Under the pieces are notes generated by a model that saw only the letters and a program-made list of their open reading frames with translations, did not search any database and was not told the DNA's origin. Positions 1,013-7,942 of a stretch of 33,386 nucleotides of DNA are shown here, piece after piece. The position numbers were made by a program, and so were the translations under genes. How positions within the stretch are numbered: the first letter of the stretch is position 1; each line of letters opens with the position of its first letter. Source of the DNA: Clostridia bacterium (lineage in GTDB: Bacteria; Bacillota; Clostridia; UMGS1883); assembly GCA_017440585.1 (NCBI GenBank), contig JAFSGW010000086.1, positions 1 to 33,386 on the forward strand. The letters are read 5' to 3'.

Positions 1013-3625
1013 TTAGTTTATATAGGCTACTTTTGCTGTTGCAAGAGGAGCAATGTTTTTAATTCCGCCCCAGGAGAATACCTTTACAGATGTAATTGTT
1101 GCTCCTGTCAGCTCTGCTGTGCCGTCAAGTGTTGTTGTTACGCTTATGAGCTTATTGTCATTGTCAAAGCCTGCAACAATATAGATGCTTTCTGAGCTTT
1201 CATTGAAGTTGAAGGTTACGGTGATTTTTTCGCCATCCTTTATGGTGGCAACATTTGAAGTGAAGGATACATTTTCTGCTGTTGCTTCTCTTACACTGAA
1301 GTCGTCAAGATACCAATAGGGACCCATACCACCGTTATTGTCACCGCCGAGCCAGCGGAACCAGAAAAGAATGTGGTCTGTATCCTCAGTTGCAGTGAAG
1401 GCTCTTTCAATGGTTGTCCATTCTGTGCCCACGGGACCGGAGGAGGTTGCGGTTGCTGTGTTTTCATCGTCACCTTCATTTGCAACAAGGCTTGTTATCA
1501 TATAACCGCTATTGGAGCCTGTTTTGTGCTTTGCCTTGTAGGAAACAATGTATGTTTTGCCCGGCTCAACCTTTACGTAGCGTTTGAGTGAGCACAAGCC
1601 GTCCTTGCCGTCGTTCCATCTGGAGCCGAATGCCCAGTTGCCGTCGGGGATTGTGTTGGATGCAACACTTACTGCACCATTGTCTGTTACGTTCTGCGTT
1701 TTGCCTACAGCATAGCAGTGATTTGTTGAATAGGGGGAGCCGAAGGTGTTGTTTGTCTGTGCACTGAGCCAGCCGTCTAAGCTGAAATTGCCGTTTTCAT
1801 CCTCAAAGGAGGGGTTAGTCATAATGTTTTCGCCTACTGCCTTATAGGTTTTGAAATTGGAAAAACGCTTAATAAAGTCAATCTCAATTTCATCGTAGTT
1901 GCCTATACCTGTCATGTAGTTAACGTCGAAGAAGGTTCTTTCGCTGTCGGAAAGTGTGGCAGCATAGGGGGAGAAGGTTGAAATACGGATTTTGCCGCCT
2001 GCTTCATCAAACTCGGCAAATTTCATGAGGGCGTTACCACCATTGTATGCAAACTGATAGTCGGCAAGAACACTGTGTACCTTGTTGCCGAAGGCATTTG
2101 TAAGCTCCAGCACGCCGTAGCCGTGGCTGTGACCACCCACCATAAGGAAAACATTGTCGTGGTTTTTAACAATATTCCAGAGGGTTGAACCATTTGTGGA
2201 GAGCTTTGTTTCGTTGGGACGTGTGTCGGAGCAGTTCTGGATGTCGTGCATTACCACGATGGTGGGGCAGGAGGCGTAGCGTGTGAGTGCTCCGCGGAGC
2301 CATGCAATCTCTGCCACGTCGGAAAGCTTGTGCATGTCGATATAAACAAGCTTATAGGGGAAGCTTCCTGCTGTTACGTCGGCAACACCGCCTGTTCCGG
2401 AGGGGGAGTATTCAAGCATATAATCAGCGGAGGTTTCTGCAAAGGGACTGTTAGGGCCGAAATACTGCTCATAATACCAGAAGTTCTGTCCGTTGCCCGA
2501 GTCGTGGTTGCCGGTGGGAACAATTGTGCGGATGTCGCTTTCTGCAAGAGAGGTATAGGTTTTTGTAATCTGCTGCCACTGGGGTGTTTCCCAGAAGTCT
2601 TCAACGTTGTCACCCAGAGAAACAATGGCTTCAATGTTGGCATAATCCTTATTGTCGATTATCCAGCCCACAGCCTTATCCAGCACATTACCGCAGAATT
2701 TTGTTGTGTTCTGTGTGTCGGGAACGAAAACCATGTTGTAACGCTTTTCATCAGTTTCTTCAAAGGGAGAGTTGTCGCCGTACTCACCCATGTATTTTTC
2801 GGGATTGGGGATGAGCCAGTCCTTCTTCTGAAGGGCTGTGTCGGAAATACGTATCTGCTGAATATATCCGCGTGTATACTTGGAAGGAGTTGTGCCCGTG
2901 CCCTTGGAGGCAATACGGAACCTGCCGTCGGCGGAGTCTGCATACAAGCCCTGCATATGACTGACATTTGCATTGCGGAAGGACTCACAGCCATTTACAT
3001 AAGAGCGGACACCGTTATTGTCGCCTGTTATAACTATGTGATACCAGTTTTCAGCCTTGTCCATGGCAATTGACCACGCATCGGAGATGCTTTCACCATC
3101 TTTATCACGCACGGAAAGCTGAATTTCTTTACAGTTGGAAATATTGAATGAGGTGGAAACCTTTTCACCTTCGATGCTTGGTGCATTTTCAGAGGGAGCA
3201 AGGCGGGCAAAAATTGATTGCCAGCGGTCGGCTACAGACCAGTCTGAAGGCATTTTGTAAATGATTTCAATTGTGTAGCCATTGGCAAAGTTGTTTTTGT
3301 TTATGGGAGCATCGCTTGCCGTTACAAAGTCAATACCACCCTGAAGGATATTGCCGTTAAAGAAAAGACTGCCTGTGCTTCCATCGATAGATTCGTCGGA
3401 GAAGGATGCAGTTTTCTTGTAGTTAAGACCGAAGTGGCGCATTGTAAGGTTGTTGCCGTTGCCTGACTTGTCGGCAAGGACCATGCTGCCCGATTCAATT
3501 GAACCGGATTTAACTGCTGATTCGTTAAACTGCCAGTCGGCAACTGTTGCGGCAGAAACCGAAAGGGGGATAGCGGCGCAAACTGTTACAGCCAGTGCCG
3601 TAAGGAGCTTTTTTACAGAAATCAT
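1013..3625 (-). CDS. Secreted LamG-metallophosphoesterase protein with C-terminal carbohydrate-binding-like and Ig-like domains
   Basis: This 870-residue protein has a signal peptide (residues 1-25, cleavage after SVSA). A concanavalin/LamG-like domain follows (about 28-262, ending GYIQQIRISDTAL). A calcineurin-like metallophosphoesterase domain (about 295-560) shows metal-ligand motifs in order: PDTQN 302-306, GDN 338-340, GNHD 372-375, MHD 459-461 and GGHSHG 497-502. A carbohydrate-binding-like module (about 598-780, starting IMTNPSFED and ending YWYLDDFSV) leads to a C-terminal Ig-like cap with VKVFSWGGIKNIAPLA. The likely role is extracellular phosphoester hydrolysis; the substrate is unknown. 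The ATG at 3625 has AGGAGG eight bases upstream and its own promoter. It is divergent from the gene at 3819, whose C-terminal modules are similar. All five phosphoesterase motifs are intact, so an active enzyme is likely. Confidence 0.9.
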   Translation of the reverse strand: MISVKKLLTALAVTVCAAIPLSVSAATVADWQFNESAVKSGSIESGSMVLADKSGNGNNLTMRHFGLNYKKTASFSDESIDGSTGSLFFNGNILQGGIDFVTASDAPINKNNFANGYTIEIIYKMPSDWSVADRWQSIFARLAPSENAPSIEGEKVSTSFNISNCKEIQLSVRDKDGESISDAWSIAMDKAENWYHIVITGDNNGVRSYVNGCESFRNANVSHMQGLYADSADGRFRIASKGTGTTPSKYTRGYIQQIRISDTALQKKDWLIPNPEKYMGEYGDNSPFEETDEKRYNMVFVPDTQNTTKFCGNVLDKAVGWIIDNKDYANIEAIVSLGDNVEDFWETPQWQQITKTYTSLAESDIRTIVPTGNHDSGNGQNFWYYEQYFGPNSPFAETSADYMLEYSPSGTGGVADVTAGSFPYKLVYIDMHKLSDVAEIAWLRGALTRYASCPTIVVMHDIQNCSDTRPNETKLSTNGSTLWNIVKNHDNVFLMVGGHSHGYGVLELTNAFGNKVHSVLADYQFAYNGGNALMKFAEFDEAGGKIRISTFSPYAATLSDSERTFFDVNYMTGIGNYDEIEIDFIKRFSNFKTYKAVGENIMTNPSFEDENGNFSLDGWLSAQTNNTFGSPYSTNHCYAVGKTQNVTDNGAVSVASNTIPDGNWAFGSRWNDGKDGLCSLKRYVKVEPGKTYIVSYKAKHKTGSNSGYMITSLVANEGDDENTATATSSGPVGTEWTTIERAFTATEDTDHILFWFRWLGGDNNGGMGPYWYLDDFSVREATAENVSFTSNVATIKDGEKITVTFNFNESSESIYIVAGFDNDNKLISVTTTLDGTAELTGATITSVKVFSWGGIKNIAPLATAKVAYIN

Positions 3626-3764: not shown

Positions 3765-3818
3765 TATCATATAATTGTGCTCGTTATAGACATATTGGGC
3801 ATTAAGGAGGAATTTTAT

Positions 3819-6800
3819 ATGAAAAAAAGTAGGATCATAGCACTTTTGACAGCTGCTGTTATGATCGTGAGCGTAATCCCTGCAGCCGCAGCGGGTTACT
3901 TCGTGGACGGAGAAGGCTTCGTTTACGACAAGTCCGGTGAAAACCTTATCGTTAACCCCGGCTTTGAAGATGGTCTCACAGGTCTTACAACAAACGAAGA
4001 GTATTATGAGATTTCAACAGCTGAAGCACACAGCGGTACAAATAGCCTTAAGGCTATCAAGAGTACAAAGGGTGATGGTGCAATCCTGAAGACCTTTGCT
4101 GTTGATAATGCTGAAGCAAGCTACTATCTTTCTTTCTGGTATAAGAACGTTGATACAGTAGCAAGAAGACCCCGTGTAACCTTCGCGTTTGCGGATTCTT
4201 CCGGTGCAGTTATTGATTCTCTTGTAGAAGAAACAAACGGTTGGGTTCAGGCAGGTACTGCATCCAACGATCAGGATATGCTTTACTCCAAGGGCGAGTG
4301 GGTTCAGTACACCACAGTTCTTAAGGGTAACGGCAGCAACGTAATCAAGAACGTTGTTCTTGAAGTTTACGGTCTTACAAAGAACGTAGCATACGTGGAT
4401 GATTTTGAGCTTTATGAGCTCATTCCCTCCAATGAATACAGTGCTGATTTCCAGGCAGCTGTTAAGGCATGGGAAAAGGTTTCAATGCCCAAGGGCAGCC
4501 TTGAAGGCTTTGGTACAATCGCCCTTCCAAGAGAAACAGGCGTTGAAGGCATCGGTGTTCAGTGGACATCCTCCTCTGTTGCTATTGATGCTGAAACAGG
4601 TGCATACTCCGCTCAGCCCGAAGAAGAGCTTGTAATTCTTACAGCACGTCTTTATGCTGAAGCTGATGAGGACGTATACTATGAATATGAATATCCTTAC
4701 ATAGTTAAGAGCATGTTCACTCCTTATATTGAATGGATGAAGAACGATGTATTCCCCAAGCTGGGTACATCTGTAGACTCTGACATTAAACTTGTAAAGG
4801 AACACACAATTACAGGCTACTACCCCGCAACAATCACATGGGAATGTTCTGATCCTGCAGTGCTTGACGGTGACGGTAACTTTACAGCTCCCGAAACAAC
4901 AGAGAGTGTTAACCTTATTGCAACTATCGAGTGTAACGGTTTCACAACATCTGTTACAAAGCGTATGAAAGCTATAGGCGGTAACATTGTTGCTGACGGT
5001 CTCGTTATGTACTATGACTTTGAAAAGGCTCTCGGCAAGGGTGGCGTTCTTTACGATAACTCTCAGAATGCTAAGGCTTTTAATGCTGAGGTTGAGGGTA
5101 TCACTCTTGTAGACGGTTTTGCTAAGTTTGCAGGCGGTGAATCTGCTATTATTCTTCCCTCTGACTATGCTACAGCTCTTACAGACAGCTACAGTGTATC
5201 TATGTGGGTAAATGTAGACAAGACTATTGCTACAAACTCTGCAATGTACCGTTTCTTTGACTTTGGTGGCGGTACAATGACATCTCAGTTCTTAAGATAT
5301 ATCCCCGGCTCCGGTCAGCTCACATTCATGGACCGTGGTACAGCTGACGGTGCTAATGACTGGGCTATCGATACAACAGTTACAGGCTTTGCTCAGACAT
5401 GGAAGCTGGTTACTCTTACATACGACCTTTCATCTTCTCCTGCAACAGCAACTGTTTATGTTGACGGCGTTGCAGTAGCAAACAGTGGCAGCTACTCCAA
5501 GCTTACAAACAGCGTAAACTCCCTTGCAGGTTCCTACTCTGAAACAGGCTTTATCGGTCGTACACAGTGGAACAACGGTGACAACCCCGACTTTATCGGT
5601 CTTATGGACGATGTAAGAATTTATAACAGAGCTATCACAGCTGATGAAGTTGCAACTCTTTATAACGAGACACGTCCCACAGTTACAGCTCCTGTTACAA
5701 TCAAGTTCCAGGATATTGACGGTGAAACACTTAAAGAAGATGTAATAGTTTCTGCGGACGTTGATACAACATATGACGTTCCTGCATCATATAAGAGCCT
5801 TCCTTCTACCTCCGATGACCAGTATCGCTATGTATATAAGTATATTTTCAGCAAGAGTACTGATTCTATAACAGTTTCTGCTGATAGTGAAAACGTATGT
5901 GTTCTTGTGTTCCAGCTTGAAAAGCAGGCTATGGGTACAAACATGCTTGCTAACCCCGGCTTTGAAGAAGGCGTGGATGGTTGGACAAGTAACAATGGTG
6001 GCAGTCTTGCTACAATTACAGGTTGGGTAAGAACAACAGAGGTTGCACATGAGGGCAACTACTCCTTGAAGAGAAATGCTGACGTTGGTAGTGCAAACGC
6101 ATCTAACTTCGGTACATATATTCCGATTGAAACAGGTAAGGTATATAACCTTAGCTTCTGGGAATACTGTGATTCTGCGGTTGGTGCAGGCAGCAGTATG
6201 ATGAGTGCTGTTTGTGTTACATCCTCTAAGGGTGCTACAAATAACTCCTCTGACCATCTTCTTCAGTTTGGTGGCTATTCTTCCTGGGTGAACGACGCAA
6301 ACAAGACTTCTCCCCGTGACGTTGCGTATGGTCAGGGCTGGAATCAGAGAGTATTTACATTTGATACAACAGGCGCAACAAATGCAAACTACATCTTTAT
6401 CGCATACGCTTGGAGCGCAGGTAGTGTATTCTGTGTAGACGATTTCGTTCTTGAAGAGGCAGGCACAGGTCCCGCCCCCGATAAAGACAGAATTGACGTT
6501 ACAGTTAAGTATGTTGACGCAGAAGGCAATACACTTAAGGATGATGTAATTATAAAGATACCTCAGGGTACAAATTCTTACACGATTCCCGATAACTACA
6601 AGACTATTGAAGATAAGGTAGCCGGTAGCCTTGTTTACAAGTACAGCTATAATGCGAAGGCTACAGACGGCAAGGACGTTGTAGAGATTTCTATCCTTCA
6701 CGAAAACGTTGCAACACTTGTGTTTGACGTAATCAAGGCTGACAAGAACTCCAATCTGGTTGTTGACGGCGACTTTATGGGTGAAGACGGCACATTCAGC

Positions 6801-7547
6801 TGGGGTACATGGCAGAGCCCTGAGACAGGTAATAACTTTGCAACAACATGTCAGGACTGGTTCTACCAGGTAAACCGTGACACAAATGCATCTGCTCTTT
6901 ACCTCACAGGTCTCACAGCTGATGACTATGCAGTTGGTACACGTTGGAACGACGGCGTAACAGGTCTTTGCTCCATGGCTAACTTTATCGAGGTTGAAAA
7001 GGGTAAGACATATATCGTATCCTACGATTATAAGCATTCTGCTGCAGGTACTGATGCATCTTACATCAGCACATCCTTCCAGAAGACAAAGTCCTACTCT
7101 CAGGGTGCTTCCGGTCAGAACATTCCCAAGAATGTTTCTACAGAATGGCAGACAAACACATTCACAATCACAGCTCCCGATGACGGTTACATTTACTTCC
7201 ACTTCTCATGGCTTGGCAGCGGCGGCAGCGCAGCTTCCTCCAACAATGGTAGTGGTCCCTACTGGTATTTCGATAACTTCGAAGTATTGGAAGTAATCAC
7301 ATTCGAAAACAACATCAAGTATGCTGCAGGCTATGCTGAAATCCTTGCTAAGGATGGCACAGAAGGTTACCTCGTTCAGGCAACTTACGATGCTGAAGGC
7401 GCACTTACAAAGGTTGTAATTTCTGAAAAGCTTACACTTAATCAGAAGGAAGCAACAAAGGTAGAGGTAGAAGCAGGCACAAAGCTTATGCTCGTTAAGG
7501 ACCTTGTAAGTCTTGAACCTCTCGCACCTGCAATTATAGCAGAATAA
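3819..7547 (+). CDS. Large secreted multidomain binding protein (CBM-like / Ig-like / LamG)
   Basis: This is a 1242-residue protein. I placed the start at the ATG at 3819 because AAGGAGG lies eight bases upstream and a signal peptide (1-25, ending PAAAA) follows; an in-frame start 42 bases upstream has no such site. Domains in order: carbohydrate-binding-like module (about 40-200, NLIVNPGFED to YVDDFELYE); two Ig-like domains (about 205-297 and 300-387); LamG/concanavalin fold (about 395-617, ending GLMDDVRIYNRAI); beta-grasp or MucBP-like repeat (about 625-702); second CBM-like module (707-883, NMLANPGFEE to FCVDDFVLEE); second MucBP-like repeat (891-973); third CBM-like module (976-1160); Ig-like cap (1161-1242). 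I see no catalytic motif, so adhesion or glycan binding is inferred. No cell-wall anchor is recognisable. The last two modules resemble those of the divergent neighbour. Confidence 0.9.
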   Translation: MKKSRIIALLTAAVMIVSVIPAAAAGYFVDGEGFVYDKSGENLIVNPGFEDGLTGLTTNEEYYEISTAEAHSGTNSLKAIKSTKGDGAILKTFAVDNAEASYYLSFWYKNVDTVARRPRVTFAFADSSGAVIDSLVEETNGWVQAGTASNDQDMLYSKGEWVQYTTVLKGNGSNVIKNVVLEVYGLTKNVAYVDDFELYELIPSNEYSADFQAAVKAWEKVSMPKGSLEGFGTIALPRETGVEGIGVQWTSSSVAIDAETGAYSAQPEEELVILTARLYAEADEDVYYEYEYPYIVKSMFTPYIEWMKNDVFPKLGTSVDSDIKLVKEHTITGYYPATITWECSDPAVLDGDGNFTAPETTESVNLIATIECNGFTTSVTKRMKAIGGNIVADGLVMYYDFEKALGKGGVLYDNSQNAKAFNAEVEGITLVDGFAKFAGGESAIILPSDYATALTDSYSVSMWVNVDKTIATNSAMYRFFDFGGGTMTSQFLRYIPGSGQLTFMDRGTADGANDWAIDTTVTGFAQTWKLVTLTYDLSSSPATATVYVDGVAVANSGSYSKLTNSVNSLAGSYSETGFIGRTQWNNGDNPDFIGLMDDVRIYNRAITADEVATLYNETRPTVTAPVTIKFQDIDGETLKEDVIVSADVDTTYDVPASYKSLPSTSDDQYRYVYKYIFSKSTDSITVSADSENVCVLVFQLEKQAMGTNMLANPGFEEGVDGWTSNNGGSLATITGWVRTTEVAHEGNYSLKRNADVGSANASNFGTYIPIETGKVYNLSFWEYCDSAVGAGSSMMSAVCVTSSKGATNNSSDHLLQFGGYSSWVNDANKTSPRDVAYGQGWNQRVFTFDTTGATNANYIFIAYAWSAGSVFCVDDFVLEEAGTGPAPDKDRIDVTVKYVDAEGNTLKDDVIIKIPQGTNSYTIPDNYKTIEDKVAGSLVYKYSYNAKATDGKDVVEISILHENVATLVFDVIKADKNSNLVVDGDFMGEDGTFSWGTWQSPETGNNFATTCQDWFYQVNRDTNASALYLTGLTADDYAVGTRWNDGVTGLCSMANFIEVEKGKTYIVSYDYKHSAAGTDASYISTSFQKTKSYSQGASGQNIPKNVSTEWQTNTFTITAPDDGYIYFHFSWLGSGGSAASSNNGSGPYWYFDNFEVLEVITFENNIKYAAGYAEILAKDGTEGYLVQATYDAEGALTKVVISEKLTLNQKEATKVEVEAGTKLMLVKDLVSLEPLAPAIIAE

Positions 7548-7557
7548 AATCAACATC

Positions 7558-7583
7558 AAAGGCACCCCTTCAGGGGTGCCTTT
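7558..7583. terminator. Palindromic terminator, left copy (left end of structured element)
   Basis: A perfect hairpin has 11-base arms (AAAGGCACCCC / GGGGTGCCTTT) and a TTCA loop. It starts 10 bases after the surface protein stop. Only three T follow, so it may be a weaker terminator than the identical copy at 7917-7942. Confidence 0.7.
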
Positions 7584-7942
7584 GAGCGTGTCGAAAAAGT
7601 CGACACGCAACAAAAAATCTTGCTGAGAGCAATATTTTTTGTTAATATTTTTCCGAGGAACAAAGTGCCAATTTCAGTGGTCAACTGTAACCGCTCTGTC
7701 ATCGCCCATGGCTTGCCAATCGCGGACAGTTTTCGCATACGAGCTATTAGCCTCGCTAACGCTTCGGATAGCTCAGCATCGTGCAAGGGGCTTGCGAGCC
7801 CCCTAAAATCGGCACTTTCGGAGGAGCAATGCGATTGCCCCTCCGATTTTATTCGGGGAACCTTCTTCCCCGAGCCCTTCGCTATTGTGCAAAATTTAGG
7901 GTTTATCGACAGTCTGAAAGGCACCCCTTCAGGGGTGCCTTT
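7558..7942. repeat. 385-bp hairpin-rich element with terminal inverted repeats (MITE-like or structured RNA)
   Basis: This fills most of the only gene-free stretch longer than 300 bases. Both ends carry the same 26-bp palindrome. The inverted similarity continues inward: left GAGCGTGTCGAAAAAG (7584-7599) against right, reverse-complemented, CAGACTGTCGATAAAC (7916-7901), 11 of 16 identical. Inside are further hairpins: 7586-7608 (8-bp perfect stem); 7610-7642 (9 bp plus 5 bp around one mismatch); 7741-7774 (7-bp stem with a nested 5-bp one); 7787-7802 (6 bp); 7818-7846 (7 plus 5 bp, one mismatch); 7853-7873 (8-bp perfect stem). AAAGTGCC at 7662-7669 can pair with GGCACTTT at 7811-7818, which would close a multibranched fold. 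No transposase is encoded and no clear target-site duplication is seen. It may be a non-autonomous mobile element or a structured RNA. Confidence 0.6.

Follow-up and report, generated by a model that had tools for sequence, protein, structure and literature searches.

The window, by which we mean the whole stretch of 33,386 nucleotides analysed here (contig JAFSGW010000086.1 of a Clostridia bacterium), contains two large, divergent genes at 1013-3625 (minus strand) and 3777-7547 (plus strand) with laminin-G-like and CBM_4_9 carbohydrate-binding domains, whose products are probably secreted or located at the cell surface. In the terminator of the gene at 3777-7547 sits a 333-bp element in its long form (7584-7916), which is the unit studied here. 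The element is bordered by identical 26-nt palindromes, AAAGGCACCCCTTCAGGGGTGCCTTT, at 7558-7583 and 7917-7942, which are target DNA and lie outside it. Just inside the palindromes, 11 of 16 positions agree between GAGCGTGTCGAAAAAG (7584-7599) and 7901-7916 read as its reverse complement (CAGACTGTCGATAAAC). An earlier note on this DNA had described the palindromes, the inverted similarity, further hairpins and a long-range pairing, all of which were found at their positions; the last of these, given there as 8 bp, is real and longer, extending over 13 columns (7662-7674 with 7806-7818) with one mismatch in the window copy. The features are as follows.

7558-7583, no strand: left copy of the duplicated target, the intrinsic-terminator hairpin of the upstream gene, identical to 7917-7942 and terminator-like by scan
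7584-7916, minus (strand of the inferred RNA): mobile element of MITE type, long form, the unit common to the genome loci and congeners
7584-7599, plus: left terminal inverted repeat, with an end motif common across Clostridia
7586-7608, no strand: left-end hairpin P1 (GCGTGTCGA-AAAAG-TCGACACGC), arms 7586-7594/7600-7608, kept in families with otherwise different interiors
7609-7643, minus: hairpin P2, arms 7609-7624/7628-7643, with compensatory changes; its variants align poorly
7658-7886, minus: structured core (P6, P5, P3, P4 in RNA order), split by a 103-bp module and conserved in other families
7662-7674, no strand: 5' arm (on plus) of the long-range helix P3
7676-7778, no strand: inserted module of 103 bp, also found alone in other repeat contexts of congeners
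7787-7802, minus: hairpin P4, arms 7787-7792/7797-7802, variable in sequence and length
7806-7818, no strand: 3' arm (on plus) of P3
7819-7845, minus: hairpin P5, arms 7819-7827/7837-7845, with the conserved loop AATGCGATT (on plus)
7853-7873, minus: hairpin P6, arms 7853-7860/7866-7873, with a conserved loop
7901-7916, minus: right terminal inverted repeat (CAGACTGTCGATAAAC on minus), resembling the IS1182 end CAGACTGTCGAAAAAG
7917-7942, no strand: right-hand terminator hairpin of the duplication, with a T tract after it

A similarity search with the 385-bp query (7558-7942) revealed matches at about 24 loci in the 2.2-Mb genome, so the second copies to be sought in the host genome and its relatives proved to be many. 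Most of the genome matches end at query positions ~22-26 and ~359-367; therefore, the terminal palindromes are not common to the copies. In the short form, query position 118 is joined directly to 222, and the 103-bp segment 7676-7778 is present in four copies, the window's among them. Relatives of the element were also detected in congeners and other Clostridia. A search of GTDB genomes for the exact left-end hairpin returned at least 119 stretches, and among the matches listed the titles are those of Clostridia or related Eubacteriales, with Clostridium sp. MD294 (ASF356), Chakrabartyella piscis and Butyricicoccus faecihominis among the carriers. Many contigs of the congener G001 end inside the element (L303-L309, L312-L315, L318, L322), which breaks this assembly, so its copy number there is probably underestimated.

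The element has the attributes of a MITE: its terminal inverted repeats are kept in other copies too, it is short (333 bp) and without a transposase of its own, its copies are multiple and dispersed, a target-site duplication is present (26 bp in the window), and autonomous relatives with matching ends occur in the genus and the class, in assemblies other than the window's. The earlier suggestion of a MITE-like mobile element is thus borne out by the copies in the genome, in congeners and in other Clostridia. A protein-coding long form was rejected, since the sole long open reading frame of the element, P0001 (minus strand), has no Pfam match above the cut-off and the protein-like stretch falls in the 103-bp module, which recurs in unrelated repeat contexts with length differences. 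In the congeners G001, G003 and G002 (L286-L298) it is dispersed inside unrelated repeats with its hairpins apparently preserved, which suggests a mobile or shuffled structured module. Besides, two copies that have themselves diverged (L031 on C44 and L035 on C53) share a near-identical 114-bp insert (AACCGAACCCGAGTG...GGGTTCATTTT) in the P5 loop, and a lone left-end hairpin between A and T tracts (L037, C84:2200-2224) is possibly a relic that can now act as a terminator.

Well-preserved copies, read in element orientation, carry one hairpin on both flanks and another hairpin at each locus (for example AAAAAGCAATCCGAAAGGATTGCTTTTT, AAGACCCCATCGCTTTTGCGATGGGGTCTT and AAAGGAGATGCATTTGCATCTCCTTT). 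Direct flanking repeats scoring at least 15 were found in 12 of the 17 copies analysed and are mostly whole hairpins of 22-32 bp, while 4 of 272 mismatched flank pairs, taken as a control, reached a score of 12. Flanking repeats of the other five copies (C16, C17b, C34, C63 and C2) are only partial or diverged, as expected of older insertions. Similarly, at least 63 of the 86 loci listed from other Clostridia (64 in a second count) have a second copy of the upstream 24-mer, matching at 18/24 or better, at 130-510 bp downstream (the maximum in the cross-locus control is 17/24), and a stem of at least 9 bp precedes the element in 66 of the 86, versus 4.8% of random positions; the 86 are the loci with enough flank among the stretches picked by their left end, a choice that introduces no bias on sequence outside that end. 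The target-site duplication is the whole intrinsic terminator of the host gene and is not part of the element. The identity of the window's two palindromes would also be produced by a MITE moving with two terminators of its own, and the earlier note had the element bring them. This is extremely improbable, because the flanking hairpin differs from locus to locus with a near-constant element in between, and likewise in other Clostridia; the locus-specific hairpins rule out terminators belonging to the element, and the palindromes are the target's terminator, duplicated on insertion.

Some flanks depart from simple repetition. At L002 (C80), L009 (C49) and L023 (C51) the stems of the flanking hairpins match and the loops agree better with one of them reverse-complemented, as if one hairpin had been flipped. 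The flanks of C63 and C17b agree in their outer stems but not in the inner parts. Both orientations relative to the direction of the terminator occur (25 to 11, with 28 ambiguous, under arbitrary thresholds).

Inspection of empty sites, which had been proposed as a check on the duplication, revealed that three congeners have, after their ortholog of the upstream gene, one terminator without any element (AAAAACTCCGCAGTTTTGTATGCGGAGTTTTTT in G002, AAAAGCCCCGATTTTCGGGGCTTTTG in G001 and AAGAACTCTGTGAGTCGGCTCACAGAGTTCTTTTTT in G003). In G002, the next gene is related to the downstream gene (35% identity); in G001, such a relative (29%) is located at a greater distance. Because the terminator sequences of the congeners have diverged, these empty sites are positional and not base-for-base. 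In the window, according to the scan, the next gene is preceded by a promoter-like site, and the right terminator copy lies immediately before this site.

The ends of the element (CAGnnTGTCGAwAAA) match those of IS1182-family insertion sequences of the same genus and class. Within the genus, G001 encodes an intact IS1182 transposase (NF033551, 415.9 bits against a cut-off of 270) in an element of 1576 bp with the end CAGACTGTCGAA and the same 29-bp hairpin on both flanks. Two more IS1182 elements were found in G061 and G099, and those at L101 (same genus), L103 and L250 (class) have the shared end motif together with whole-hairpin repeats. Both transposases examined by family assignment belong to the IS1182 family. 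In G278, a short element of the superfamily and an intact IS1182 adjoin each other within a single terminator, and the hairpin of this terminator is present three times; this pair, together with the ends, the target and the type of duplication, ties the short elements to IS1182. Autonomous IS1182 elements (NF033551; e.g., L101) and the window element have in common the terminal motif CAGACTGTCGAAAAA, the terminator-hairpin target and, in the genomes examined, the whole-hairpin direct repeats, whereas the window element differs in having no transposase, a self-complementary left end, and a core that is absent from the autonomous loci tested. The element is therefore not filed as an IS1182 insertion sequence, which would have its own transposase, despite its family-type ends and palindromic target.

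Mobilisation by a transposase outside IS1182 that also targets hairpins was considered. The window's own assembly (93% complete, fragmented) yielded no IS1182 transposase and its genome no PF13751 match, and the exact left-end hairpin GCGTGTCGA...TCGACACGC was found on short elements only and not on the resolved IS1182 elements, as such a transposase would allow. We consider it improbable, given that IS1182 elements of the same genus share both the end motif and the unusual duplication of a whole hairpin, and that one IS1182 shares a terminator with a short element.

Known members of the family show a different outcome at the same kind of target. IS1272 and TnSha1 (IS1182 family) insert at stem-loops, frequently those of transcription terminators, show no preference for a primary sequence, and delete or replace the target stem-loop with no target duplication (PMC5678879, PMC4923244). 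The window element has the same stem-loop target, but its hairpin is duplicated whole, standing on both sides where the congeners have one; it is thus not of the IS1272 type, in which the stem-loop is deleted without duplication. The whole stem-loop would be duplicated if joining took place at the 5' feet of a cruciform, an outcome that has been drawn only as a possible pathway (b) (PMC5678879). Our data fit such a hairpin-duplication pathway, and the duplication lengths follow the hairpin. ISfinder, as cited in PMC7335449, gives direct repeats of 2-60 bp for the IS1182 family, so its curators may already have met such cases.

The interior of the element is strongly folded. The predicted fold of 7584-7916, with the minus strand as RNA, has an energy of -139.9 kcal/mol (-94.9 +/- 5.0 for dinucleotide shuffles, z = -9.1), which indicates structure beyond chance; further hairpins lie inside the 103-bp module at 7676-7778. 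In an alignment of 28 copies from four genomes, P1, P2, P3, P5 and P6 change with pairing kept, while loops and joints are constant: 92.4% of the cells are paired, compared with 84.4% in shuffles and 33-51% when slid, and the score for covariation is 0.224 versus 0.095 (0 of 500 shuffles). Compensatory stem changes, as looked for in a functional RNA, are therefore present, and the covariation asked about in the earlier note extends to the interior stems and is not confined to the terminator hairpins. Since related sequences are not independent, covariation counts here and below overstate the number of events.

A model of the core built from the minus strand (R1), which matches the window at 7764-7884 (minus, 94 bits), gave just three weak matches outside the genus, all of them in G181. 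A related repeat occurs in this genome in about 20 copies, its parts arranged in the same order and its end hairpin similar, and at least one copy (L347) has a recognisable duplicated terminator; compensatory changes occur in 18 of 52 predicted pairs among the G181 copies alone. A second model (R2), built from the G181 copies only, recognises copies of the window genome with E-values down to 7e-6. In 98 other loci it revealed 38 sites at E < 0.01, reaching up to 82 bits, 33 of which are located 31-120 nt inward from the left-end hairpin, every one on the opposite strand and none reversed. In the 55 aligned R2 matches, 91.2% of cells pair (68.8% in shuffles) with compensatory changes in 42 of 43 pairs; because this alignment was fitted to R2, and both training rows and a few matches on the reverse strand are among its members, its counts weigh less than the blind recovery of copies and their fixed position. 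Over 398 genomes of the phylum, a sample thin per genus and strictly filtered, the only R2 matches were in the window genome and, weakly, at one site in G061.

Inside the autonomous IS1182 elements tested, R2 found nothing convincing, and its one clear match at IS1182 loci (L252) is a neighbouring short element; an origin of the core as an internal deletion of IS1182 was therefore rejected. No Rfam 15 family matched the core or the element above its gathering score, in agreement with the earlier statement that it fits no RNA family. The conserved AATCCGCAGG recalls the Q element of group I introns; group I intron identity was rejected, as Rfam gave it no support. The core is widespread but not universal, since the interiors of some other families with the same ends are not recognised by R2. 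Nine loci with the same ends (L150, L154, L158, L161, L199, L202, L215, L227 and L235) share the interior motif TTCGTCGGCGTAC..GTACGNCAGAG, which lies within a long changing stem, is mostly unrecognised by R2 and is possibly a second type of structured core. As judged from the alignments, the element carries a covarying, putatively RNA-forming core that is conserved across element families of several Clostridia and absent from Rfam 15.

Departures from pairing point to a strand. On the plus strand, one-sided departures in P3, P5 and P6 comprise 29 A.C and 5 G.T cells, and A.C on plus corresponds to G.U on minus; by our own count of distinct pair events in these helices within the genus, the predicted strand is favoured by 11 to 4. 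Across all families, counted by pair and type, G.U exceeds A.C on the predicted strand by 32 to 16, and one U-G pair is invariant there in G181. With moderate confidence, the core is best read as a predicted RNA running from the right end toward the left-end hairpin (window minus). In the MD294 family, the distance between core and right end is only about 22 nt and no evident promoter was found, so transcription of the core may come from read-through.

The main rival for the core holds that its stems are kept for a DNA-level reason and that no functional RNA exists, the hairpins being bound by transposase in single-stranded or cruciform DNA, or quasi-palindromes being corrected by template switching. 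One family lacks an evident promoter beside the core, and departures are mostly replaced by perfect pairs, as template switching would give. We judge this rival rather unlikely, though worth serious attention: the excess of G.U over A.C on the predicted strand and the invariant U-G pair of G181 argue for RNA, loops and joints are conserved between the covarying stems, and the long-range helix P3 encloses P4, which simple quasi-palindrome correction does not explain. Mobile element and structured RNA, which the earlier note had put as alternatives, therefore go together, with RNA as the probable functional form of the core.

Taken together, we give a probability of roughly 0.85 to the reading of 7584-7916 as a MITE-type element that is moved in trans by an IS1182-family DDE transposase, with duplication of the target hairpin, and whose core is likely an RNA. 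Under this reading, the transposase would act on the non-autonomous element, the target hairpin would be cut as a cruciform, and after gap repair the element would have the full hairpin (26 bp here) on both sides. With a hairpin copy on each side, neither neighbouring gene is left without a terminator, and insertion is probably near neutral. The core would serve the non-autonomous element itself, because the autonomous IS1182 loci tested are without it; its role may lie in mobilisation, or in making transcribed copies tolerable or harmless. Since copies multiplied by transposition keep the structure across families, selection probably acts via propagation of the element.

Comparable systems offer partial parallels. 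The bacterial MITEs and small repeats BOX, RUP, SPRITE, ERIC and REP, as treated in the parts of a review that we consulted (PMC10969869), resemble the window element, by description and not by sequence, in being short, non-coding, multi-copy and intergenic, with transcripts that can fold stably; those parts contain no IS1182 MITE or whole-terminator duplication. In IStrons, a group I intron is joined to an insertion sequence, and the structured RNA is reported to make insertions harmless (PMC4227781). The analogy is limited to the joining of mobile DNA with a structured RNA, since the window element has no group I intron or Rfam match, is much smaller and has another transposase.

A speculative idea, which we hold to be unlikely, sees these elements as an ancient class of non-autonomous transposons whose defining feature is a conserved RNA that works with the IS1182 transposase or with its terminator targeting. 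If it were true, mobility would depend on an element-encoded RNA lacking in the autonomous partner, for instance one bound during terminator read-through. The copies provide dozens of natural cases of whole-hairpin duplication, which in the literature we found only drawn as a possibility for this family. The duplication length is set by the hairpin (~20-35 bp) and not by a fixed stagger, which makes structure-directed cutting directly testable. That both neighbours keep a terminator suggests how a high copy number at low cost is conceivable. Finally, the core is a candidate structured-RNA family of several groups of Clostridia that is missing from Rfam 15, and its link to transposition can now be tested.
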